Of a stretch of DNA of 64,000 nucleotides, positions 1 through 16,417 are shown in pieces. Made by a program: the position numbers and the translations under genes. The number at the start of each line of letters is the position of its first letter. Position 1 is the first letter of the stretch. This DNA is from a virus: positions 1-64,000 of IMG/VR virus record IMGVR_UViG_3300021088_000008; one strand, given 5' to 3'. The notes beneath the pieces were generated by a model. It was not told the DNA's origin and made no database searches. It worked only from the letters and a program-made list of their open reading frames with translations.

Positions 1-558
1 CGCGAATCGAATGAGCATTATTGCGAGCCGTTTTGGTGCAGCCAGAGGTTGTTTGAGGAGGAGAATTTTTCGCCGAGGATCTGGGACCCATGCTGCGGAT
101 TCGGGCGCATCCCGATCGCGGCGGCCCGCGCCGGTCTCGATGTGATCGGGACGGACATCGCTGATCGAGGATTCCACATGCTGGCTTCCAAACAGGATTT
201 CCTGACAACTCAGCGCGTGCTCGCGGGCCATATCGTTTGCAACCCTCCGTTCAATATCGCAAGCCGATTCGCCCTTCATGCGCTGTCCTTGGACCGCGTC
301 GAGAAAGTCGCGATGATCTTCCCCACCGCGCGCTTGAATGCCGCTCACTGGCTGCGCGGAACTCCGCTGATTCGGGTCTGGCTGATGACGCCGCGGCCGA
401 GCATGCCGCCCGGCCATACCATTGCCTGTGGCGCGAAACCCGGAGGCGGCAAGGTCGATTTTTGCTGGCTGGTCTGGGAGCGCGGATACGACGGCGCCGC
501 GCCTGAACTTTGTTGGCTGCGTCGCGATGGCAAAGGAGGAAACGATGGATCCGATTGA
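1..558 (+). CDS. DNA methyltransferase-like protein, 5' end cut off by window
   Basis: The reading frame is open from base 1, so the true start lies to the left of the window. The visible part has a class I SAM-dependent methyltransferase fold signature: a glycine-rich motif I (DPCCGFGRIPIAAARAG, about 24 codons in from the TTG at 49), an acidic GTDIAD strand, and a NPPFN motif IV, as in N6-adenine or N4-cytosine DNA methyltransferases. It probably modifies phage or host DNA, for example against restriction, but target and activity are inferred. It overlaps the next gene by 14 bases, which fits a transcribed operon. It is short even allowing for the missing start, so a degenerate or minimal enzyme is possible. 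Confidence 0.75.
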   Translation, partial: RESNEHYCEPFWCSQRLFEEENFSPRIWDPCCGFGRIPIAAARAGLDVIGTDIADRGFHMLASKQDFLTTQRVLAGHIVCNPPFNIASRFALHALSLDRVEKVAMIFPTARLNAAHWLRGTPLIRVWLMTPRPSMPPGHTIACGAKPGGGKVDFCWLVWERGYDGAAPELCWLRRDGKGGNDGSD

Positions 559-742
559 AGTGGTTACCCTGGCGCGGTTCAATCTGCGCGTCTGCCAAGA
601 TTCGCTGGCGATCGCCCGCGGTGCGGCGCCGAACTGCTGGGGTATCCGGCAGGCATTCTCGCCGTACGATATCCGAGCGTACGAAGACCGCGTCGTGCGC
701 GCCATCGACCTGCTTTGGGAAGCGCAGCAGAATGCCGCGTGA
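545..742 (+). CDS. small hypothetical protein, 65 aa
   Basis: The ATG at 545 has a strong ribosome binding site (AAAGGAGGA at 531-539) and overlaps the methyltransferase end. The product is mostly helical and soluble with no recognised domain. It overlaps the next gene by 11 bases, so it is probably translated as part of one early message. Function unknown. Confidence 0.75.
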   Translation: MDPIEVVTLARFNLRVCQDSLAIARGAAPNCWGIRQAFSPYDIRAYEDRVVRAIDLLWEAQQNAA

Positions 743-932
743 TCTCCGCAAGAAAGAGGTCGACCGCCGCGCCAAGGCCCGCCGGCAGTACGCGATCGAG
801 CGGAACGAGCTCCGCGAGGCAACGGTACCGCGCCGGGCCGCAGCGGGCGCCACGTCGTTTGCGGTCAAGGTGTCCGACCCGGAGGACCGGGCCGCGATTG
901 ATGCGTTCCTGGAGGCTCGGAAGGGCTCCTGA
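732..932 (+). CDS. small basic hypothetical protein, 66 aa
   Basis: Starts at the ATG inside the end of the preceding gene. The N-terminal half is very rich in Arg and Lys (MPRDLRKKEVDRRAKARR) and the C-terminal half is acidic and helical (DPEDRAAIDAFLEARKG). Nucleic-acid binding is possible from the charge but not shown. It is the last gene before a gene-poor stretch. Confidence 0.65.
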   Translation: MPRDLRKKEVDRRAKARRQYAIERNELREATVPRRAAAGATSFAVKVSDPEDRAAIDAFLEARKGS

Positions 933-983
933 GAGCGGCAGTGGATACCGGGGATAGCCGTTGACTCCAAAACCGATTCGACC

Positions 984-1030
984 CTACAAAACGCAAGCGA
1001 CCCGCCGGGGGCTTTGGCGGGCCGTTGTAG
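984..1030. repeat. nested inverted repeat / hairpin
   Basis: CTACAA (984-989) pairs with TTGTAG (1025-1030), and inside it CCCGCC (1001-1006) pairs with GGCGGG (1016-1021). There is no run of T after it, so it is not a standard rho-independent terminator on the + strand. It could be a processed RNA structure or terminate the operon ending at 932. Confidence 0.55.
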
Positions 1031-1306
1031 CGTTACCGATGGATATCCTTGCCGGGAACATCGGATGGCACAAGATGTATGGCTTCTGCTGCCCTGCGTC
1101 AACCTTCCATCCAAAAACCCCAGCAATTTTCCCCATCGTCACAAGTCTGCCATCTTGGCCGGAGGTTCCGGCTGACCTAGCAACGGTGGATGCGCGCGGG
1201 TGTGAGGGCTTGCCCTTTCTCGGGTGTGCGGCTGGGGAAAATGTCGAGATAGGCTCGCTGTCCCATTCCGGCTCGGTCGGTCAGACGCGGCGAATATCCC
1301 TGCCTT

Positions 1307-1326
1307 CTCAGACTTCACGGTCTGAG
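1307..1326. repeat. perfect 7-bp hairpin upstream of replication-type gene
   Basis: CTCAGAC (1307-1313), loop TTCACG, GTCTGAG (1320-1326). It sits about 85 bases before the start of the gene at 1410 and could be an operator or a leader hairpin. No T run follows. Confidence 0.5.
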
Positions 1327-1409
1327 GGGTAAGGGGTGTTCGGCCCTACGAACCCTTCCTCTCAATCGGTCAAACGACACAAAGTAAGCAAGAAAGGGGA
1401 ATCTGGATC

Positions 1410-1934
1410 ATGACTCGAAAGCCGCACAAGACGATGACGCCCGACGAATACGCAGCGCTCCAGATCGAGGGTTGGCATGAGGTCTGCCGGAATGTGGACG
1501 GCTTCGGTGGTGTCGGGGTTCGATTCGTGACGGCGGCGAAGAAATCTGGCGAGATCGACGACGATTGGCCCGAGGATTACCTCGAACAATTCTGGAAGCA
1601 ATTTCCGCCCTTCCGGCGCCAAGCCAGGGCGAAGGTTGGCCAGAAGCTCGCCAAAATCCGCGCCGCCGGCGCCGTGACCTGGCAGGTTCTATTTGCTGGG
1701 GTTTTGAAATTCGCGGCGACGAATCCCGGCGAGTACGCGCCGGCGCCGATGGTGTGGTTGAACGACGGTCGATGGGACCGGGAATATGGAAAAGGATTCT
1801 CCAATGGAAAAACTCAAGGCGCCTCCGGTGACAAGATCGGGTTCTCCGGCCTCGCCGCCAGGATCCGCTATGGTGATCTCGACGGGGAGTCCCGCCCGGC
1901 TCCCGAAGATCTCGAACCTGTTAACCGACGTTGA
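1410..1934 (+). CDS. replication-initiation-like phage protein, 174 aa
   Basis: The ATG at 1410 follows an AAAGGGGAA ribosome binding site. The central part (about residues 57-115) has the pattern found at the C-terminal end of many phage replication (O/DnaT-like) proteins: an FWKQFPP-type entry, a helical repeat with alternating Lys/Ala, then a P-x-x-W-L-N-x-G-R-W-D motif. By that analogy it would help load the replication machinery. The usual N-terminal winged helix is not obvious, so this may be a shortened relative. Its tail overlaps the next gene. Confidence 0.6.
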   Translation: MTRKPHKTMTPDEYAALQIEGWHEVCRNVDGFGGVGVRFVTAAKKSGEIDDDWPEDYLEQFWKQFPPFRRQARAKVGQKLAKIRAAGAVTWQVLFAGVLKFAATNPGEYAPAPMVWLNDGRWDREYGKGFSNGKTQGASGDKIGFSGLAARIRYGDLDGESRPAPEDLEPVNRR

Positions 1935-2385
1935 AATTCCGCGGTCGGCCTGGGCGGCTTGGATCCCGTCAGAGGGATCGCGCCAGTTGCGGCGGACTCT
2001 GACCGAAGTCGAGAGGAGCGCGCTGGTCGCGCGCCGAGATGAGTTGGCGCCGGCGGTTCTCGGATTCGCTGATTTCGAGCGGAACAAGGTCGCGCTTGCG
2101 CTCGCGGATATGTTCGGGTCGTTTCCATCGATGCGGCAGAGCGGTAGCGAAGTCATGGCGCGGCTCGACGCAGCTCAACGGGTGCTTGAGCCTTACCCGC
2201 TGTGGGCGATCCGACGGGCTTGTCTGTCGATCCAGTCGAATGGCGTTTGGCGCGAGGAAAAATTCGATCGGCAATGGCCGCCGAGCGACGCCGAGATTGT
2301 GGCCAGTGTCCGCGCCGAGATGCGCCTCTACGCCAACCAATATCATTCTGCGGTCGCGCTGCTGGCCGCTACGGTCGAGGAGTAG
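1804..2385 (+). CDS. hypothetical protein next to replication gene, 193 aa
   Basis: The ATG at 1804 has AAAGGA (1791-1796) at good spacing, which decides this start although it overlaps the previous gene by 131 bases; an ATG at 1870 is the alternative. The protein is mostly helical, with a region of about 100 residues around ERNKVALALADMFGSF and a conserved-looking WPPSDAEI motif. Similar proteins are often found beside phage replication genes, but I cannot assign a reaction. Confidence 0.65.
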   Translation: MEKLKAPPVTRSGSPASPPGSAMVISTGSPARLPKISNLLTDVEIPRSAWAAWIPSEGSRQLRRTLTEVERSALVARRDELAPAVLGFADFERNKVALALADMFGSFPSMRQSGSEVMARLDAAQRVLEPYPLWAIRRACLSIQSNGVWREEKFDRQWPPSDAEIVASVRAEMRLYANQYHSAVALLAATVEE

Positions 2386-2387
2386 CG

Positions 2388-2750
2388 ATGAGATCCTTCA
2401 ACGAGCCATGGGAACCCGAGGACATCTTCGACCGCCACGAGGCCGCAGAGCGCCGCGCGTATCTGGACCGGATCAAGGAGCGGAATGCAGCGACCGCCGC
2501 ACAGGAGGCCGCCGCTGAGGCGGCACGGCATGAATCCGCACGGCAGTTCACTCTTGAGACCACGAAGCGGGCGATCCGGCGCGATTACGAACAGGCCGGA
2601 GTCGAACCGCTGCAGGTTGGTGGGGATGGAACACCGACGGTATCCCTCCCGCTGCTGCTGTCGATGGGGTGGACTGTGGCCGATTTCAACGGCGAGCGGC
2701 AGCTCGTGCGGCCAAATCATGAGAGACCATCACACAGAGGAGACGAATGA
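2388..2750 (+). CDS. hypothetical protein, 120 aa
   Basis: Starts two bases after the previous stop. The N-terminal half is charged and likely a coiled coil (residues about 10-60, rich in Ala, Glu and Arg). The C-terminal half contains a SLPLLLSMGWTVADF segment. It overlaps the ribosome binding site of the following ASCH gene. No recognised family. Confidence 0.65.
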   Translation: MRSFNEPWEPEDIFDRHEAAERRAYLDRIKERNAATAAQEAAAEAARHESARQFTLETTKRAIRRDYEQAGVEPLQVGGDGTPTVSLPLLLSMGWTVADFNGERQLVRPNHERPSHRGDE

Positions 2751-2751
2751 A

Positions 2752-3309
2752 ATGGCCATGTTCAAGGAAATCAAGGTGATCACGTTATGGCAGCCATGGG
2801 CAAGCCTGATCATGATCGGCGCGAAGCCGTGGGAATTTCGCAGTTGGAACTACGCTACATGCGGCATCGGTGTTCGTATCGGCGACACGATCGGAATTCA
2901 TGCCGGCGCGCGACCAACCAAGCCGGCGGAAGTTCGAGACCTCCTGGCTCGCCTGGATGACGAGGATGGATCAACCGGATTGATCCCGGATCTGGCGCGG
3001 CCGCTTCTTGAGCGCCTGATGTCAGCGCACAAGTGCATGGGCATAATCGAGCACTCCGCGCTGCTCGGAACGGCGACAATCGGAAAGCCAATTCTGAGTT
3101 GTGATCTCAAACCTGAATGGGCAGCCCTGATCAACGATAGCGATCGGCTGGAGCATTGCAATTGGGCGTGGCCAATGTCGGATATCAGCCGATTCGATGA
3201 GCCGATCAAAATCAATGGCCATCAGGGATTTTGGAATTTCTCGATGCCAACCGAGCTTTGGGAACATCAAGCTGGAATTGATCACGTGCATCGCCGCGCG
3301 ATAGCTTGA
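2752..3309 (+). CDS. ASCH/PUA-fold domain protein, 185 aa
   Basis: The N-terminus carries the ASCH signature: ITLWQPWASLI followed by GAKPWEFRSW, then a beta-rich core with IHAGARPTK. ASCH domains are PUA-like folds thought to bind RNA or modified nucleotides, and they are frequent in phages. The start is fixed by GAGGAG at 2737-2742. It ends tail-to-tail with the leftward gene at 3212-3619, with a 98-base overlap. The C-terminal 60 residues are Trp-rich and may bind the ligand or a partner. Confidence 0.8.
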   Translation: MAMFKEIKVITLWQPWASLIMIGAKPWEFRSWNYATCGIGVRIGDTIGIHAGARPTKPAEVRDLLARLDDEDGSTGLIPDLARPLLERLMSAHKCMGIIEHSALLGTATIGKPILSCDLKPEWAALINDSDRLEHCNWAWPMSDISRFDEPIKINGHQGFWNFSMPTELWEHQAGIDHVHRRAIA

Positions 3310-3619
3310 GATGCTTCAAAACCTCAAGCGGATGCTGCTGGTCGAGGATGCCGGCACGGATCAGCGCGTCGGCGTAGTCGCCCAGGACCATGCCGAGCAT
3401 GGCCCGGCCGCGCTCGGTGAGCACCGTCGTCCTGGGTCTCACAGCTCCGGTGGGCGAGCCGCGGAGGTAGCCTTGGCCGATGAGCGCGTTCCGAGACTGG
3501 ACCTTGTGGGGGTCGCAGATGGTGACGTCGACCTCTCCATCGATATGTCCGATCAGCATGTTCCGTTGGCAAACGGTGAGTTTCCGGAGTTCGGTTTCGC
3601 TGATCGGGGCCATCGTCAT
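3212..3619 (-). CDS. winged-helix-like small regulator, 135 aa
   Basis: The ATG at 3619 is preceded by AGGAG with 8-base spacing. The middle of the protein reads like a winged helix: a helical stretch ending in SRNALIGQGYLRG (recognition helix) and then a basic wing with RPRTTVLTERGR. It is the only leftward gene in the first 15 kb and has its own promoter-like sequence, which fits a regulator of the flanking rightward genes. The last 30 residues are coded opposite the end of the ASCH gene. Confidence 0.6.
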   Translation of the reverse strand: MTMAPISETELRKLTVCQRNMLIGHIDGEVDVTICDPHKVQSRNALIGQGYLRGSPTGAVRPRTTVLTERGRAMLGMVLGDYADALIRAGILDQQHPLEVLKHLKLSRGDARDQFQLDVPKARLASRNSKIPDGH

Positions 3620-3646
3620 GGGCGGATCTCCTGGGTTCCATGCAGA

Positions 3647-3674: not shown

Positions 3675-3727
3675 TAGCCAGAGGTGATAATTGTCGCTAA
3701 AACTGATTCCGAAACGGAGGCGTGGCC

Positions 3728-3913
3728 ATGAAGCTAGATCGCAACATCAACGGCACCGGTCGTGGCAAGTACGGGTTGGTAAACAATCGCAGCGTATTGA
3801 TCTCCAGCGCGAGAACCGACGCCTCCGGCAGGAGATCGCCGCGCTTGAGGCATTCGAAGATCCAATGCCGTGGCCGCCACGCCGACAATACCAATTTTCG
3901 GAGGATCAACTGA
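3728..3913 (+). CDS. small protein with MKLDRNIN N-terminus, possibly frameshifted, 61 aa
   Basis: A good ribosome binding site (GGAGG) precedes the ATG. The N-terminus MKLDRNINGTGRGKYGLV has the look of a small phage protein family starting MKLDRN-x-N-x-x-GRGKY. After about residue 21 this frame turns into an unlikely Ser/Arg-rich tail, while the -1 frame reads as a plausible coiled coil (DLQRENRRLRQEIAALEAF). The stop TGA overlaps the ATG of the next gene, so the annotated end may be real or may reflect a frame change. Confidence 0.5.
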   Translation: MKLDRNINGTGRGKYGLVNNRSVLISSARTDASGRRSPRLRHSKIQCRGRHADNTNFRRIN

Positions 3914-4098
3914 TGTCTGAATGCATCATTGATGGTTGCCAGAAAAATCTTCTCCTCGCTGAGATGGACGAGCGTGTAAAAGCTGAACGCGAGCGCTGCA
4001 TTGCCATCGTGCAGGCTGCTCGCCGAGGCGATATCGATGGTGACCTCAGGTGCCTTATCAGCCGCATGAAAGATCCTAACGACAGGGGCGAATCCTGA
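3913..4098 (+). CDS. small hypothetical protein, 61 aa
   Basis: Starts in a TGATG overlap with the preceding gene and has GGAGG about ten bases upstream. It has a short Cys pair (CIIDGC) near the N-terminus followed by a long helix (LLLAEMDERVKAERERC). The same frame is open upstream and encodes a coiled coil, so this may be the C-terminal part of a longer protein. Confidence 0.6.
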   Translation: MSECIIDGCQKNLLLAEMDERVKAERERCIAIVQAARRGDIDGDLRCLISRMKDPNDRGES

Positions 4099-4448
4099 TG
4101 GCACAGCGAACGCCTGGACCGTGGAATTACGTGCGAGCTCCGCAGCCAACAGATGGTGAGTTTGATTGCGCCATCAGCGCCTTTATCGATGGCAAACGGC
4201 AGGTGATCGCCGAATGCTTCGGCCGCGTCGCTCATAACGTAAGGCCAGATTCGCAGGCGAACGCCGCTGCGATCGTCAAATGGGAGAACTCGTTCGACGA
4301 ACTCGTGAGAGTGCTGGAGGATCTGCTGAGATGCGGAAGCGCCATCATCGGAGCTTCGACCGATGATCCCCAAGCAGAAGAGGCATTCAAGATGTACGAC
4401 ACGGCGAGAAAGCTAGCGCGCGCCGCCCTCGCCAAGGCCAAGTCATGA
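4098..4448 (+). CDS. conserved phage small protein with TPGPW N-terminus, 116 aa
   Basis: The sequence starts MAQRTPGPWNY, then QVIAECFGRVAHN, ANAAAIVKWENSF and a C-terminal helix ending ARAALAKAKS. This layout (TPGPW start, ANAxLIAAAPELL-like centre) is that of a very common phage family of unknown function; the usual AAPELL piece is altered to VKWENSF here. Overlaps both neighbours by 1 and 4 bases. Confidence 0.75.
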   Translation: MAQRTPGPWNYVRAPQPTDGEFDCAISAFIDGKRQVIAECFGRVAHNVRPDSQANAAAIVKWENSFDELVRVLEDLLRCGSAIIGASTDDPQAEEAFKMYDTARKLARAALAKAKS

Positions 4449-4612
4449 CTGATCCATCCATGCACGACGCGCTGACACCGCCGCGCCAGCGCCCCGGCTA
4501 TAACTGGGAGCGCCATGAAGGCTGCTCCTGCCGTTCGTGCCCGTGGAAGGGAAACTGCAGGGGCGAGGATACTGAGCACTGGATTCGGATTGGAGAAGAG
4601 CATGAGACTTGA
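4445..4612 (+). CDS. 55-aa Cys-rich zinc-knuckle-like protein
   Basis: A short gene starting in an ATGA overlap with the preceding stop. It contains CSCRSCPWKGNC near the middle, four closely spaced cysteines that could bind one zinc, with an RPGYNWERHEG stretch before them. The tight packing with neighbours (its end overlaps the next start by 11 bases) supports it as a real gene. Function unknown. Confidence 0.6.
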   Translation: MTDPSMHDALTPPRQRPGYNWERHEGCSCRSCPWKGNCRGEDTEHWIRIGEEHET

Positions 4613-4799
4613 AGCCATCATCAAATCCGTCATCGAGGACGGCGAAGAGCTAAGCATCTCTATCAGAGGATGGGCTGATTCCGATCCAGTCGGGACAATG
4701 AACCGCCCGCTCGGCACAATCAAAATTCCTTCAAGCCCCCGCAACTGTCGCGCCTATCATGTCGGGCGCCGCTTGTTTATCGACGTGAAACCAGCCTAA
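4602..4799 (+). CDS. small hypothetical protein, 65 aa
   Basis: The ATG at 4602 follows GGAGAAGAG. Predominantly beta (VIEDGEELSISIRGW, GTIKIPSS, GRRLFIDVKPA), soluble, no membrane segment and no known family. Part of a row of short early genes. Confidence 0.65.
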   Translation: MRLEAIIKSVIEDGEELSISIRGWADSDPVGTMNRPLGTIKIPSSPRNCRAYHVGRRLFIDVKPA

Positions 4800-11896: not shown

Positions 11897-14800
11897 ATGG
11901 CGCGCGGCGGATTTCGGAAAAACAGCGGACCGAAGCTTGATGCAGATGGAAAGGCATTGAAGCCGTACAAGCGTCGCGATGGGGAAAGTTCAGAGAGTTC
12001 AAACGGGGAAAGTTCAAACGTTGTTCAAATGCGTGCGGCCAAGGCTGTGCCGGCCGAGCCAAAGGCCGAAGATGACCCTGCGATCAATCCCCGCGCCTGG
12101 GCGATGATGCTCCCTGAGATCGAGGAGATCAGCCGGCGGTATTCGGCGAAGAAAGAGCGGACGTCGGCCGACAACCCGTTCCAACTGCCAGCGTTCCCCA
12201 AGGCCGCGGTTCCATCCGATCCCAAGCTGCTGATGGCGCAGGACAGCGCCCTAACGGCAAATCTGGGGTTCGCCTCGAATCAGTGGCTCGCCGGCGGCGA
12301 TGGCGGGTTCGCCGGCGAAGGGTTCATGTTCTTGGGCTACACCTACCTGTCGGAGCTCGCGCTGCGCCCCGAGTACCGCGTCATGGCCGAGACGATCGCG
12401 GATGATGCGACCCGGAAATGGATTGATTTCGACGTCGTTGGCGATGAGAAGACGCAGCAGGAGGACCGCGAGAAGGACCCGGCCGGCTACGACGAGCGCA
12501 TGGCCGATCCAGACGAGCGCAAGAAGCGCGTCAACGGCGCCGGCAAGACGGACAAGGTCAAGGCGCTGCAGGACGACCAGCTGCGCCTGGCGGTCCGCGA
12601 CCGCTATTACGAGCAGGCGCGCAACGGCGGATTCTTCGGCCGCAGCCATCTCTTCCACGACATCCGAACCAACGATTCGGACGACATCAACGTCGAGGAG
12701 CTCAAGAACCCGATCGGGAATGGCCGCGACGCGCTCAGCAAGACCAAGGTTCCGATAGGATCGTTCAAGGCGCTGAAGACGATCGAGCCCATGTGGGCCT
12801 ACCCGCTGATGTACAACGCCGCATATCCGTGGCGCCAGGACTGGTACAATCCGCAAGTCTGGTACGTGAACGGCCAGGAGTTTCACGGCTCGCGGTTGCT
12901 GACATTCATTCCGCATCCGGTGCCGGACATGCTCAAGCCGGCCTACGCGTTCGGCGGGCTCAGCCTAACCCAGATGGCGAAGCCGTATGTCGACCGCTGG
13001 GTCACCACCGTCTCGAGCGTGAACGCGCTGATCCACTCGTTCTCGGTCATGGTTCTCGCGACCGATCTGTCGACGCTGATGCAGCCAGGCAACATGGCCG
13101 CACTGATGGCGCGCCTCGCGATGTTTAATATGTTGCGCGATAATCAGGGCGTTTTTGCCATCAACAACAAGACTGAGGACTTCAAGAACGTCTCGGCCTC
13201 GCTGGCCGGCTTGCACGAGCTCCAAGCGCAAAGTCAGGAGCATATGTGTGTTCAGGCCGGAACCCTAATCGAGACGGACCGCGGTCCAGTCCCGATTGAG
13301 GGCATGACCACAAATGATCAGGTGTTGACCCGTAATGGCTTTGCTTCTATCAACTGGATAGGAGTTACCGGGCACGTCGACACTTTGATCAGAATCGAGG
13401 CTGGCGACTCCATTATCTCGGTCACGAAAGAGCACCCGATATGGTCGGAGACAGCCGACGATTTTGTCGCTGCGAAGAATGTGAATCCTTCCCACCGCCT
13501 CTTCGTGCTCGAAACCGTAAGCCCGGGAAATATGGGTCGTCCATCGCTTGGCGAGGTCGATGGTGGTGGCATACGAAAGAGGGCTATTACCGCGGTCCTA
13601 TCCCGGACGGCTATGAAATCCATCATGGCGATGAGGATGGCACCAACAACGAATGGGGCAATCTTGAGTTGCTCACCTATTCAGAACATCAGGCTCGCCA
13701 CATTCGGATTGGATTCAACGTCTACGATCGAACATACGCGAAAAAATGCGTGGTTTGCGGCGATGGTTTCACGAGCGTTTTCGTGGGTGAGAGATCTCGG
13801 TATTGCTCTCAATCCTGCAAATCAAAAGCCCTCAAAATTCGACGTGGCTGGAAACCTAGGCGGGATCCGAAGCGGTGCGAATGTTGCGGAGATATGTTCA
13901 CGCCAATACGTAAAAGCACCACTAGATTTTGTTCTGACAGATGCTATCAGCGCGACGGATACCGGAAACGCCGTGGCTCACTCGACAAGAGATGCCTCCA
14001 TTGCGGCGGGAAATTCACCCCAAAGCGAATCGATTGCAGATGCTGTTCTCCTGCGTGCAACCGCTCGCTCATTAACCAAAATCGGCGCGTTCAACGTGCC
14101 GCGACAGCCCGTCTATAACATCTCAGTTGCGAACGGATTTTTGCCAGAATTCTTCGCCAACGGAATCCTTGTTCATAATTGCTCCGTCAATCGGATCCCG
14201 CTCGTCAAGTTCACTGGAATCCAGCCTGCTGGGCTGAATGCATCGTCGGAAGGCGAGCTTGAGTGTTATGACACTACCATTGAGGGCTATCAGGCGCGCG
14301 TCCTCGACGGCAACCTGAGAACCACCATTAACCTCGAGCAACTCTCGTTGTGGGGCGAAATAGATCCGGAAATTACGCACCGATGGGAAAAGTTGCGACC
14401 GATTACGGAAGCCGAGCGCGGCCAGAAGCAAAAGGACGACGCGGACACCCGTGAGAAGTACGTCGACATGGGTTCGTTCTCGCCGCAGGAGATCCGCAAG
14501 ATCGCGATCGAGGATCCGGAGTTGCCGTTTGGGGGGTTGGATCCGGATGACGTTCCGAAGCCGCCGGCGGAGGAGGGCCTGCTCGGGCCTGGCGCGGGCG
14601 CCGCGGCGACCGAGTTCGAGAAAGAGGCCAGCGGCCAGGGCGGCGACAAGCCCGACAAGGGAGGCGGGGCTAGCGATGCCGTCCTCCCTTTCCTCGCGGG
14701 CGACGCTGAGTTCGTGGAATCGGACCACCCGCGCGCGCCAGACGGCAAGTTCGGAAGTGGCGGGGGAGCATCAGCGCCGGCCGAGCATCCCCATGGGAGC

Positions 14801-15772
14801 ACGCCGAAATTCCACGCAATGGTCACCAAGCACAAGATTCCAGAGGCGGCCAGTGAAGTCGCTAAGTCGGCGCGCGCGCTCAAACAGAAGCAAAGCACCG
14901 TTGCCAAATACGCGAAGTACATCACTTCCCTCAACGAGAAGGTGGACGAGATTACGAATTCATCCTCTTCGCCGGATCAGCTCATCTCGTTGCGCGACTT
15001 GGCTGAGGCTCCGACACCCGACGAAATTAACGATTTCGCGCGCGGTCTGGTCCGTGAGGGCAAGGTCAAGGACGTCCTTGGATTCGAGGACGATAAGGAT
15101 GGATTCAAGGACTTGATGGAGGAGCTCAGCCCGCAGGAGAAGCAAGACCTGATGATGCTCAAGGGGCGGCTGGAGGCGCTTTACCCGAAGGCATTCGAAG
15201 CGGCAAAGGAGACCCGTAAGATCGCGCTCGAGACCGAGAAGGCGATGAAGGTCATGCGGAAGCGGATCGACAAGTCGCCATCGTATGACGATTTCGATGA
15301 CCCCGACGATATCGAGCATCTCTATGCTGACCAGATGGCTACGCTCTTTGATCAGGACCCGGAAGACCTCGATGATCTGATCGGCGTCACGAGCTATCTC
15401 GCTGATGAGCCAATATCGGCCGAATATGCCGAAATCCTCCACGGTCAGAAGGAGGACATCGACGAATCGGCCGCCGAGCGGCGACGGTTCGACGCGCTCT
15501 CAGAAGAGGAGCAGGCGGAGGAATTGGCGGAAAAGGCCGAGAAAGAGCGACTAGATAAGGCGATGGAGGACAAGCACCGAGAGTTGACCATCGAAATCGC
15601 CATGCGAGACGGCTGGAAACCGGAATTCAATGACATCGGCAGCGTGACGAATCGGCCTGAGAGCGTGAAACAGGTCGCGTCATCGCCGACCAGCATCGGG
15701 AAGATGTACCGATTCCTGAAGGCATCCGGCGTTGAGATCCCAGAGGCCGGGAAGCGATTCCTGGATTGGTGA
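11897..15772 (+). CDS. portal protein (DUF1073 family) interrupted by an intein, 1291 aa precursor
   Basis: The portal forms the ring through which DNA enters the head. Residues about 60-450 and 762-900 match DUF1073/phage portal proteins, with conserved pieces such as LADDATRKW-like IADDATRKW, and RIPLVKFTGIQPAGLNASS after the intein. Codons 451-761 are an intein, so the spliced portal would be about 980 aa. That is still long: after about residue 900 a 390-residue acidic, coiled-coil extension is present, starting with a linker containing ESDHPRAPDGKFGSG. The first 45 codons contain four copies of a GTTCAAA-like heptamer and encode a Ser/Glu repeat. No good ribosome binding site is visible besides the heptamers. 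Confidence 0.9.
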   Translation: MARGGFRKNSGPKLDADGKALKPYKRRDGESSESSNGESSNVVQMRAAKAVPAEPKAEDDPAINPRAWAMMLPEIEEISRRYSAKKERTSADNPFQLPAFPKAAVPSDPKLLMAQDSALTANLGFASNQWLAGGDGGFAGEGFMFLGYTYLSELALRPEYRVMAETIADDATRKWIDFDVVGDEKTQQEDREKDPAGYDERMADPDERKKRVNGAGKTDKVKALQDDQLRLAVRDRYYEQARNGGFFGRSHLFHDIRTNDSDDINVEELKNPIGNGRDALSKTKVPIGSFKALKTIEPMWAYPLMYNAAYPWRQDWYNPQVWYVNGQEFHGSRLLTFIPHPVPDMLKPAYAFGGLSLTQMAKPYVDRWVTTVSSVNALIHSFSVMVLATDLSTLMQPGNMAALMARLAMFNMLRDNQGVFAINNKTEDFKNVSASLAGLHELQAQSQEHMCVQAGTLIETDRGPVPIEGMTTNDQVLTRNGFASINWIGVTGHVDTLIRIEAGDSIISVTKEHPIWSETADDFVAAKNVNPSHRLFVLETVSPGNMGRPSLGEVDGGGIRKRAITAVLSRTAMKSIMAMRMAPTTNGAILSCSPIQNIRLATFGLDSTSTIEHTRKNAWFAAMVSRAFSWVRDLGIALNPANQKPSKFDVAGNLGGIRSGANVAEICSRQYVKAPLDFVLTDAISATDTGNAVAHSTRDASIAAGNSPQSESIADAVLLRATARSLTKIGAFNVPRQPVYNISVANGFLPEFFANGILVHNCSVNRIPLVKFTGIQPAGLNASSEGELECYDTTIEGYQARVLDGNLRTTINLEQLSLWGEIDPEITHRWEKLRPITEAERGQKQKDDADTREKYVDMGSFSPQEIRKIAIEDPELPFGGLDPDDVPKPPAEEGLLGPGAGAAATEFEKEASGQGGDKPDKGGGASDAVLPFLAGDAEFVESDHPRAPDGKFGSGGGASAPAEHPHGSTPKFHAMVTKHKIPEAASEVAKSARALKQKQSTVAKYAKYITSLNEKVDEITNSSSSPDQLISLRDLAEAPTPDEINDFARGLVREGKVKDVLGFEDDKDGFKDLMEELSPQEKQDLMMLKGRLEALYPKAFEAAKETRKIALETEKAMKVMRKRIDKSPSYDDFDDPDDIEHLYADQMATLFDQDPEDLDDLIGVTSYLADEPISAEYAEILHGQKEDIDESAAERRRFDALSEEEQAEELAEKAEKERLDKAMEDKHRELTIEIAMRDGWKPEFNDIGSVTNRPESVKQVASSPTSIGKMYRFLKASGVEIPEAGKRFLDW
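11988..12029 (+). repeat. GTTCAAA cluster C (four copies) inside portal 5' end
   Basis: GTTCAGA at 11988-11994 and GTTCAAA at 11997-12003, 12012-12018 and 12023-12029. They form an imperfect 24-base tandem that begins with GGGGAAAGTTCA twice and encodes a Ser/Glu/Asn-rich stretch. Confidence 0.8.
13247..14179 (+). mobile_element. intein in the portal gene, 311 codons
   Basis: Begins at Cys451 of the precursor with block A (CVQAGTLIETDRGPVPIEG), has block B with the conserved Thr-x-x-His (SVTKEHPIW) about 58 residues in, and ends with blocks F/G (PVYNISVANGFLPEFFANG then ILVHN) before Cys762. Splicing would join ...EHM to CSVNRIPLVKF, a highly conserved portal site. Cys1, His-Asn and Cys+1 are all present, so it should be able to splice. 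The 226 codons between B and F do not look like any endonuclease in this frame; they are the antipartner of the HNH gene in the other frame. Confidence 0.93.
13441..14118 (+). CDS. HNH homing endonuclease nested out of frame inside the intein, 225 aa
   Basis: Read in the -1 frame relative to the portal. The HNH core is about residues 40-90: GRWWWHTKEGYYRG, then GYEIHHGDEDGTNNEWGNLE and SEHQARH, with the His-His, Asn and His of the HNH_3 group. Three zinc fingers of the form C-x2-C-x(12-16)-C-x3-C follow (CVVCGDGF..., CECCGDMF..., CLHCGGKF...), probably DNA-binding. The ATG lies in block B of the intein; GAAAGAG (13426-13432) is a weak ribosome binding site. The stop at 14116-14118 lies just as block F begins. 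GC is lower than in the flanking portal. It probably drives homing of the intein. Confidence 0.85.
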   Translation: MVGDSRRFCRCEECESFPPPLRARNRKPGKYGSSIAWRGRWWWHTKEGYYRGPIPDGYEIHHGDEDGTNNEWGNLELLTYSEHQARHIRIGFNVYDRTYAKKCVVCGDGFTSVFVGERSRYCSQSCKSKALKIRRGWKPRRDPKRCECCGDMFTPIRKSTTRFCSDRCYQRDGYRKRRGSLDKRCLHCGGKFTPKRIDCRCCSPACNRSLINQNRRVQRAATARL

Positions 15773-15775
15773 GGA

Positions 15776-16417
15776 TCAGCGAGGCTTGATTGAGGTCATT
15801 GCAGCGCGGCCGATATACTCGGCATAAGCCGGTGGGATCGCCTGGGTGATCTCGCGCCAGTTCATCCAATCGATGCCCATGGCATCGCGAGCTTCGCCGA
15901 TCGATCGTGCCCTCGGGATTCTGTAACCGTCCCCGAAGTGACCTTGCGGATGCTCGCCATATACTCCCACGAGCCGCTTGCCGCGGCACGAGCATTTCTT
16001 CCATATGCAGCAACCGAAGCTAGTTTCGAAGAGCCGATGGCGGCGAACGCCAAGGCCGAAGTGGGTACCGCATAGCGTCATCGCGTTGCGCAGAGGCGCC
16101 CCGATCACGTTCTCGATCACGGTCATCGGGCATGCGGCCAGCAATTTCCGCACATCGGCAATCAGCGAAACATGGGAATTATCGTTCCACGAAGCGTTGA
16201 ATCCGACATGCGCCTGACATGGAGGGCTCGCCCATACCAAATCGAAACGCTGTAAATCGAATGGCAGCCGAAGCGCGTCGGCCTGCACGAATCGGAACGG
16301 ATAAGCAGGCTGCGGTTTACTGTCGACGCCGATCAAGTCGAATCCGGCCCGATGCAATCCCATGGATGCACCACCGGCGCCGCAGAACAGATCAAGAGCA
16401 ATAGGCCTGTGGTTCAC
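15776..16417 (-). CDS. C5 cytosine DNA methyltransferase, 213 aa
   Basis: Motif I DLFCGAGGASMG (9-20), motif IV SPPCQ with catalytic Cys67, motif VI ENV (102-104), motif VIII-like RRHRLF (125-130) and a C-terminal QAIPPAYAEYIG resembling motifs IX-X. It transfers a methyl group from SAM to cytosine in DNA. At 213 residues it is shorter than typical enzymes and the target recognition region is small (about 130-175). Overlaps the preceding leftward gene by 4 bases. Most likely protects phage DNA from host restriction. Confidence 0.9.
   Translation of the reverse strand: MNHRPIALDLFCGAGGASMGLHRAGFDLIGVDSKPQPAYPFRFVQADALRLPFDLQRFDLVWASPPCQAHVGFNASWNDNSHVSLIADVRKLLAACPMTVIENVIGAPLRNAMTLCGTHFGLGVRRHRLFETSFGCCIWKKCSCRGKRLVGVYGEHPQGHFGDGYRIPRARSIGEARDAMGIDWMNWREITQAIPPAYAEYIGRAAMTSIKPR

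Follow-up and report, generated by a model that had tools for sequence, protein, structure and literature searches.

In canonical homing-endonuclease inteins of the PI-SceI kind, the nuclease forms a domain of the intein polypeptide itself and is encoded in the intein frame; an HNH example of such an intein was reportedly described by Dalgaard in 1997. Fractured genes with split inteins, in which a free-standing endonuclease lies between the two halves, are said to have been described by Dassa in 2009. The closest precedent found for the locus studied here is the ShiLan domain, an HNH encoded out of frame in a mycobacteriophage methylase without a splicing domain (Arsenault, Gosselin and Gogarten 2025, PMC11855218). 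The ShiLan insertion is believed to remain part of the methylase protein, since neither intein splicing motifs nor an intein fold are present there.

The stretch of DNA analyzed here (the window) comprises positions 1 to 64,000 of the 73,218-base virus record IMGVR_UViG_3300021088_000008 in IMG/VR. It contains a phage portal gene with an intein, and an HNH gene is nested in the -1 frame of this intein. The features are as follows:

11897-15772, plus strand: portal ORF, 1291 aa, open straight through the intein at 13247-14179.
11897-13246, plus strand: portal N-extein (Phage_portal_3/DUF1073), C-terminus ...QAQSQEHM (Pfam PF06381, 1e-50; phrog_146 portal, 1e-44).
13247-13519, plus strand: Hint N-half, intein residues 1-91, with Cys1 and block B TxxH as TKEH (Hint_2 match; invariant C1/T60/H63 columns; AlphaFold pLDDT>90; mini-intein fold matches).
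13441-14118, plus strand: nested HNH gene in the -1 frame, 225 codons plus TAA (Pfam HNH_3, 1.8e-10; phrog_15471 HNH endonuclease, 1.4e-19).
13441-13443, plus strand: HNH start ATG, formed from the rare Ile codon ATA and the TGG of block B HPIW, atATGG (sequence; site-a comparison).
13441-13530, plus strand: stretch coding in both frames, with conservation of host DDFVAAKNVNPSHRLF as well as HNH CRCEECESFPPP (N-overlap columns; alignments).
13520-14029, plus strand: host-frame filler, intein residues 92-261, predicted to be disordered (AlphaFold pLDDT<50; host-frame dN/dS about 1 in relatives).
13525-13531, plus strand: GGGAAAT, a non-conserved heptamer in the host frame where coding passes to the other frame, possibly slippery for a -1 shift (sequence).
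13588-13692, plus strand: HNH_3 core, HNH residues 50-84, H-N-H residues kept (Pfam; alignment).
13747-13818, plus strand: zinc finger 1, C103, C106, C122 and C126 (invariant Cys columns; pLDDT 77-92).
13876-13944, plus strand: zinc finger 2, C146, C149, C164 and C168 (invariant Cys columns).
13993-14058, plus strand: zinc finger 3, C185 to C206 (sequence; pLDDT 80-93).
14030-14179, plus strand: Hint C-half with blocks F and G, penultimate His and terminal Asn (TIGR01443; pLDDT about 90 or more).
14116-14118, plus strand: stop codon TAA of the HNH gene, within VYN of block F, GTC TAT AAC, taTAAc (sequence).
14180-15772, plus strand: portal C-extein with Cys as the +1 residue, CSVNRIPLVK (sequence; homologous empty site QEHMASINRIPLVK in the intein-less relative L003).
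15776-16417, minus strand: cytosine-methyltransferase-like ORF LDLFCGAGGASMG, directly 3' of the portal gene.

The intein and the -1 HNH ORF had been proposed in an earlier note on this DNA; their coordinates are correct, and both frames are open. In the portal frame, the intein junctions read QEHM/CVQAGTLIE...EFFANGILVHN/CSVNRIPLVK. A class 1 intein is defined by Cys or Ser at position 1, TxxH in block B, and a C-terminal His-Asn followed by Cys, Ser or Thr; the window has C1, TKEH and HN/C, and these residues are near-invariant across relatives. The Hint_2 match in the portal frame (1e-5) is slightly below the Pfam cut-off, and the intein_Cterm model TIGR01443 (NCBIfam) scores above its cut-off with the whole portal as query. 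AlphaFold modeling with 17 related inteins gave pLDDT >90 over most of residues 1-91 and 262-311 and <50 over residues 92-261, and this low-confidence middle coincides exactly with the HNH-coding interval. The top matches of the intein model in the PDB are mini-inteins (DnaB, DnaE, gp41-1 and RecA; E 4e-5). Profile searches against Pfam and PHROG found no nuclease match in the intein frame, in agreement with the earlier view that this frame carries no endonuclease between blocks B and F, and no family match to the host-frame middle. The HNH thus lies in the -1 frame of the intein and not in frame as in the canonical arrangement, and the portal ORF is unbroken, which differs from a split intein in a fractured gene.

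The nested gene encodes the expected 225-residue HNH protein with three zinc-finger-like Cys clusters. The AlphaFold model of this product has its highest confidence in the zinc-finger part; a fold search with the model returned zinc-finger matches only, weak and not significant, and a sequence search of solved structures found no match. Alignment revealed that 17 residues (RNEKAGGLLHRVMWETH in the related intein L002a) are absent before the HNH core in the window, so this copy may be an impaired nuclease.

To place the locus among its relatives, a census was made by HNH similarity, blind to the host frame. The profile scan took in 80 of 558 relatives and, among the matches listed, gave at least 79 HNH loci that passed the threshold; 48 of them were nested in the -1 frame by a strict motif, 18 more were recognized as such by eye, seven were split and six were free. 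After removal of identical proteins, the census comprised at least 89 nested -1 loci, one nested +1 locus, 10 split and 14 free loci, and the addition of L166 and L169 brought the total to at least 91 distinct nested -1 inteins; since the sequences are related, these counts are not independent. The host genes of the 91 are 72 terminase large subunits (TerLs), 16 portals (with two insertion sites) and three genes too short to place. Extein clustering produced one cluster of 72 that includes annotated TerLs and another of 15 portals (16 with the window), and six TerL representatives were confirmed by profile. Searches with the portal and with the HNH, which cover the comparison of portals with and without the intein that the earlier note had suggested, located nested inteins at site a, the site used in the window (L002, L008, L035-L037 and L039-L042), and at site b some 20 codons downstream (L002, L004, L007, L009, L013, L043 and L046), as well as empty homologous sites in L003, L005, L006, L010 and L028, with L003 and L005 being close relatives without the intein. 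Both sites are occupied in the L002 portal, whose two nested-HNH inteins (2807-3643 and 3704-4666) are about 20 codons apart. The arrangement is also present in a prophage of the cultured bacterium Asaia astilbis (JCM 15831; L046/L049) and inside the TerL inteins of three phages (Tetrasphaera phage TJE1, Acinetobacter phage Highwayman and Rhodobacteraceae phage LS06-2018-MD07). The archaeon Halobacterium sp. GSL-19 has it as well, in a TerL encoded on a complete plasmid. The three phage loci are annotated only as terL and the archaeal one as a single protein, so that public records which show one protein here have missed a gene.

Other forms were encountered as well. The L042 phage has two nested-HNH inteins, at 213-722 in a TerL-like gene and at 2965-3471 in the portal. 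The sole +1-register nested HNH among the matches listed (L084/L085; HNH 2689-3336 in host ORF 288-3641) lies in the intein of a portal/minor-head fusion gene and has a different N-terminal zinc-finger arrangement. Split-intein relatives are L031, L070, L076, L083, L109, L121, L130, L132, L140 and L144. In the fractured TerL of Vibrio phage 1.245.O (L031, 2441-3175), the N-intein ORF stops within the overlapping HNH and the C-intein ORF begins near the HNH end. In Brochothrix phage BL3 (L167, 502-2382), TerL is annotated as gp2 and gp3 with N- and C-intein halves, and the HNH is reduced to a zinc-finger tail. A free HNH in L071 (2858-3679) lies at the 3' end of the terminase gene, near the TerL intein site, and is flanked on both sides by a terminase-like C-terminus (DRYG...YY.NIWR). 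In the site-b intein of L013 (4129-4860), the HNH core is gone; the deletion removed a multiple of three bases, and both frames are still open. Two Planctomycetota inteins (L060 and L061) contain a related HNH in frame, that is, in the canonical arrangement.

Selection on the two frames was then compared across relatives. Position 3 of the HNH codons was the most variable in the core of 30 of 30 portal-group pairs and, in a wider set, in 159 of 159 pairs, in all of which HNH identity also exceeded host identity. In the listed pairs with unsaturated dS, dN/dS was about 0.06-0.36 for the HNH frame and about 1 (range about 0.7-1.75) for the host frame; pairs with saturated dS were left out, and the method ignores frame overlap, yet the contrast is large. 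These two results identify the nuclease as the selected gene and the host-frame middle as filler: the HNH frame is under purifying selection and the host frame is near-neutral, which bears out the earlier proposal that the nuclease is maintained in one frame while the other is only kept free of stops. Over the 34-65 codons before the HNH core, both frames are conserved in the portal groups, and this stretch is therefore truly dual coding. The observation that both frames read as sensible protein near the borders holds true there, with clear dual coding restricted to about 40 codons after block B and to the block F edge. It is very improbable that the middle of the host frame forms a functional domain of its own, with both frames coding throughout; host-frame identity in the core is 25-60%, as such a domain might show, but its dN/dS is about 1, pLDDT is <50 over residues 92-261, and the middle has no family match.

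The openness of the host frame had been regarded as surprising on the basis of (61/64)^226 = 2e-5. The arithmetic is correct, but the value overstates the surprise of a single case: with the HNH protein fixed, the probability of no host-frame stop is 0.118 by codon permutation and 0.015 with portal extein codon usage. A host-frame stop is possible only at HNH Leu, Ile, Met or Val codons ending in A or G, and such residues make up about 13% in the HNH family vs 20% in the portal extein; 2e-5 is thus too strict, as the HNH/zinc-finger composition makes the -1 register nearly stop-free. The strong evidence against chance is comparative. Across 21 nested inteins, host-frame stops number 0 vs about 34 (permutation) or about 49 (extein usage) expected, where a nested locus has an open host frame by definition but loci were retrieved for their similarity to the HNH or the portal, irrespective of frame. 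The third frame of the same inteins has 2-27 stops each, and free-standing HNH homologs have 0-15 each in the host-equivalent frame. Chance as the source of the open frame is ruled out by this comparison across relatives. The single-case range of 0.015-0.12, together with the 17-residue deletion in the window copy and the core loss in L013, might be taken to favor a decayed fossil, namely an in-frame HNH displaced by indels in an intein that stayed stop-free by chance. This is extremely unlikely: purifying selection acts on the HNH frame in all comparisons, the same register is kept in at least 91 diverged inteins with recurring start and stop positions, and the in-frame HNH inteins among the matches are the two distant Planctomycetota loci; the selection tests rule the fossil reading out. 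The probability that the frame difference is an artifact of sequencing or assembly is close to nil. The assembly quality of the IMG/VR source record is unknown, but isolated or cultured sources (TJE1, Highwayman, the LS06 record, A. astilbis JCM 15831 and the complete GSL-19 plasmid) share the arrangement, and this recurrence refutes the error explanation. Neither one-base errors that would place the HNH in frame nor relatives with an HNH frame full of stops, both of which the earlier note had named as ways in which it could be wrong, were found; many diverged relatives keep both frames open.

The start and stop of the nested gene follow a pattern that could explain how the nuclease is made. 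The ATG in block B (HPIW) and the stop at block F (VYN) of the window were both verified. At site a, all six divergent members with HP[IV]W use ATA or GTA immediately before the Trp codon, and either of these codons followed by TGG creates an ATG start; ATA/GTA are mostly scarce in the exteins of the same six (3/40, 6/42, 0/32, 2/27, 4/45 and 7/29). At site b, six of seven members carry an ATG seven codons earlier, which arises where a codon ending in A precedes the Cys codon TGC; the remaining member has GTG instead. Among the 89 nested genes, 69 have ATG as their best candidate start, and over the whole set the median Shine-Dalgarno energy is -4.6 vs -3.1 in matched controls (p=7e-7, relatedness not corrected); the window HNH has a weak value of -2.2. 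In the portal groups, HNH stops fall in or near block F. A rival explanation is that the nuclease comes mainly from programmed -1 frameshifting of the portal frame, giving an N-intein-HNH fusion that needs no start of its own. The GGGAAAT of the window is placed where coding switches between the frames, a slippery heptamer occurs at this hand-over in 8 of the 16 inteins compared, and heptamers across the upstream region were found in 13 of 89 cases vs 5.6 expected. On the other hand, the heptamer is absent from L008, L035, L004, L009, L013, L042, L043 and L045, an invariant HNH lysine at its position explains much of the pattern, and it is start codons and Shine-Dalgarno-like sites that are conserved or enriched. 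With the heptamer in only half of the inteins compared, frameshifting is retained as a minor rival and considered unlikely.

The locus is thus very probably a mobile element of composite nature, in which a complete HNH homing-endonuclease gene lies out of frame (-1) within an intein that splices in cis. This reading is supported computationally by the open frames, the Hint fold, purifying selection on the HNH, the near-neutral filler, the near-fixed -1 register, the recurring starts and stops of the portal groups and the empty sites. The dominance of the -1 register probably reflects the scarcity of stops that HNH/zinc-finger proteins leave in it, together with the ability of blocks B and F to provide a start and a stop. 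Gene structure and selection are well supported; for splicing, initiation and homing, we infer the following course. Ribosomes in the portal frame would produce the precursor protein, in which the Hint halves would fold about the disordered linker and excise the intein by splicing. The nuclease would be a separate product, most likely of internal initiation at a start codon in or near block B, with translation ending in or near block F, as the start-codon and Shine-Dalgarno signatures suggest. It would then cleave intein-less alleles, and repair would copy the element in.

Homing of the element is suggested by its distribution and by the nuclease that it encodes, and the 17-residue gap in the window and the core loss in L013 would be ordinary signs of a homing cycle. 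An identity dip around the insertion site is also seen between the intein-less relatives L003 and L005 and is therefore not specific evidence of homing; accordingly, a co-conversion signature was dropped as proof. In the HNH tree, the nucleases of each portal site group in a single supported clade close to TerL members; the tree intermixes nested, split and free forms and needs about 14 changes of state among them. The earlier suggestion that the arrangement is possibly an intermediate is plausible, and the tree, in which these forms mix, does not give a direction. Besides in-frame fusion and split genes, the arrangement offers a further way for an intein and an endonuclease to be associated. 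It illustrates how a mini-intein could take up a free-standing nuclease gene with no need for matching frames, as the host gene only requires a stop-free insert when the insert is spliced away. Moreover, a single nuclease family that occurs nested, split and free makes the origin of homing inteins and fractured genes directly testable by comparison of these forms, and the locus is a natural case of overlapping genes where drift in one of the two frames is almost unconstrained.

When compared with known systems, the locus shares features with each of them. As in ShiLan and Pacc40 gp60, a zinc-finger HNH is encoded out of frame within a phage gene, with an open host frame, a 5'-proximal start, a stop at the 3' end and a sporadic distribution, and the register of ShiLan gp65 is the same third (-1) frame as that of the window. 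Unlike ShiLan, which is absent among the listed phage matches of the window HNH family, the window HNH lies inside a splicing-type intein with clear Hint halves, and the genes involved are terminases and portals. Like canonical homing inteins, the element has Hint halves with the endonuclease between blocks B and F and would home by cutting empty alleles, whereas its nuclease is a separate overlapping gene. It resembles fractured genes in having an independent nuclease gene between intein halves, a form taken by ten relatives of the window family, but its host ORF is unbroken and splicing would therefore be in cis. The free-standing HNHs of phages PAE1, BP10, EauM-23 and CL2 are homologous HNH and zinc-finger proteins from the same terminase/portal neighborhood; unlike the nested HNH, they lie outside other genes, and their host-equivalent frame usually contains stops. 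The passages compared from two other phage-intein papers (PMC5050341 and PMC9957025) describe no out-of-frame nuclease inside an intein; the main threat to novelty is a preprint on actinobacteriophage inteins of "non-canonical architecture" (10.1101/2025.01.02.630785). The third arrangement proposed earlier stands as an arrangement but not as a one-off, since it is a widespread class and an out-of-frame HNH without a splicing domain has already been published (PMC11855218). It is real, conserved and widespread, a homing-intein variant that is new relative to the literature compared. We lean slightly towards regarding it as a large undescribed class of packaging-gene inteins in bacterial and archaeal tailed viruses, in which the endonuclease is an overlapping gene in a near-fixed -1 register, splicing motifs serve as its start and stop, and the nested form is a switching state between free nucleases, composite inteins and fractured genes.
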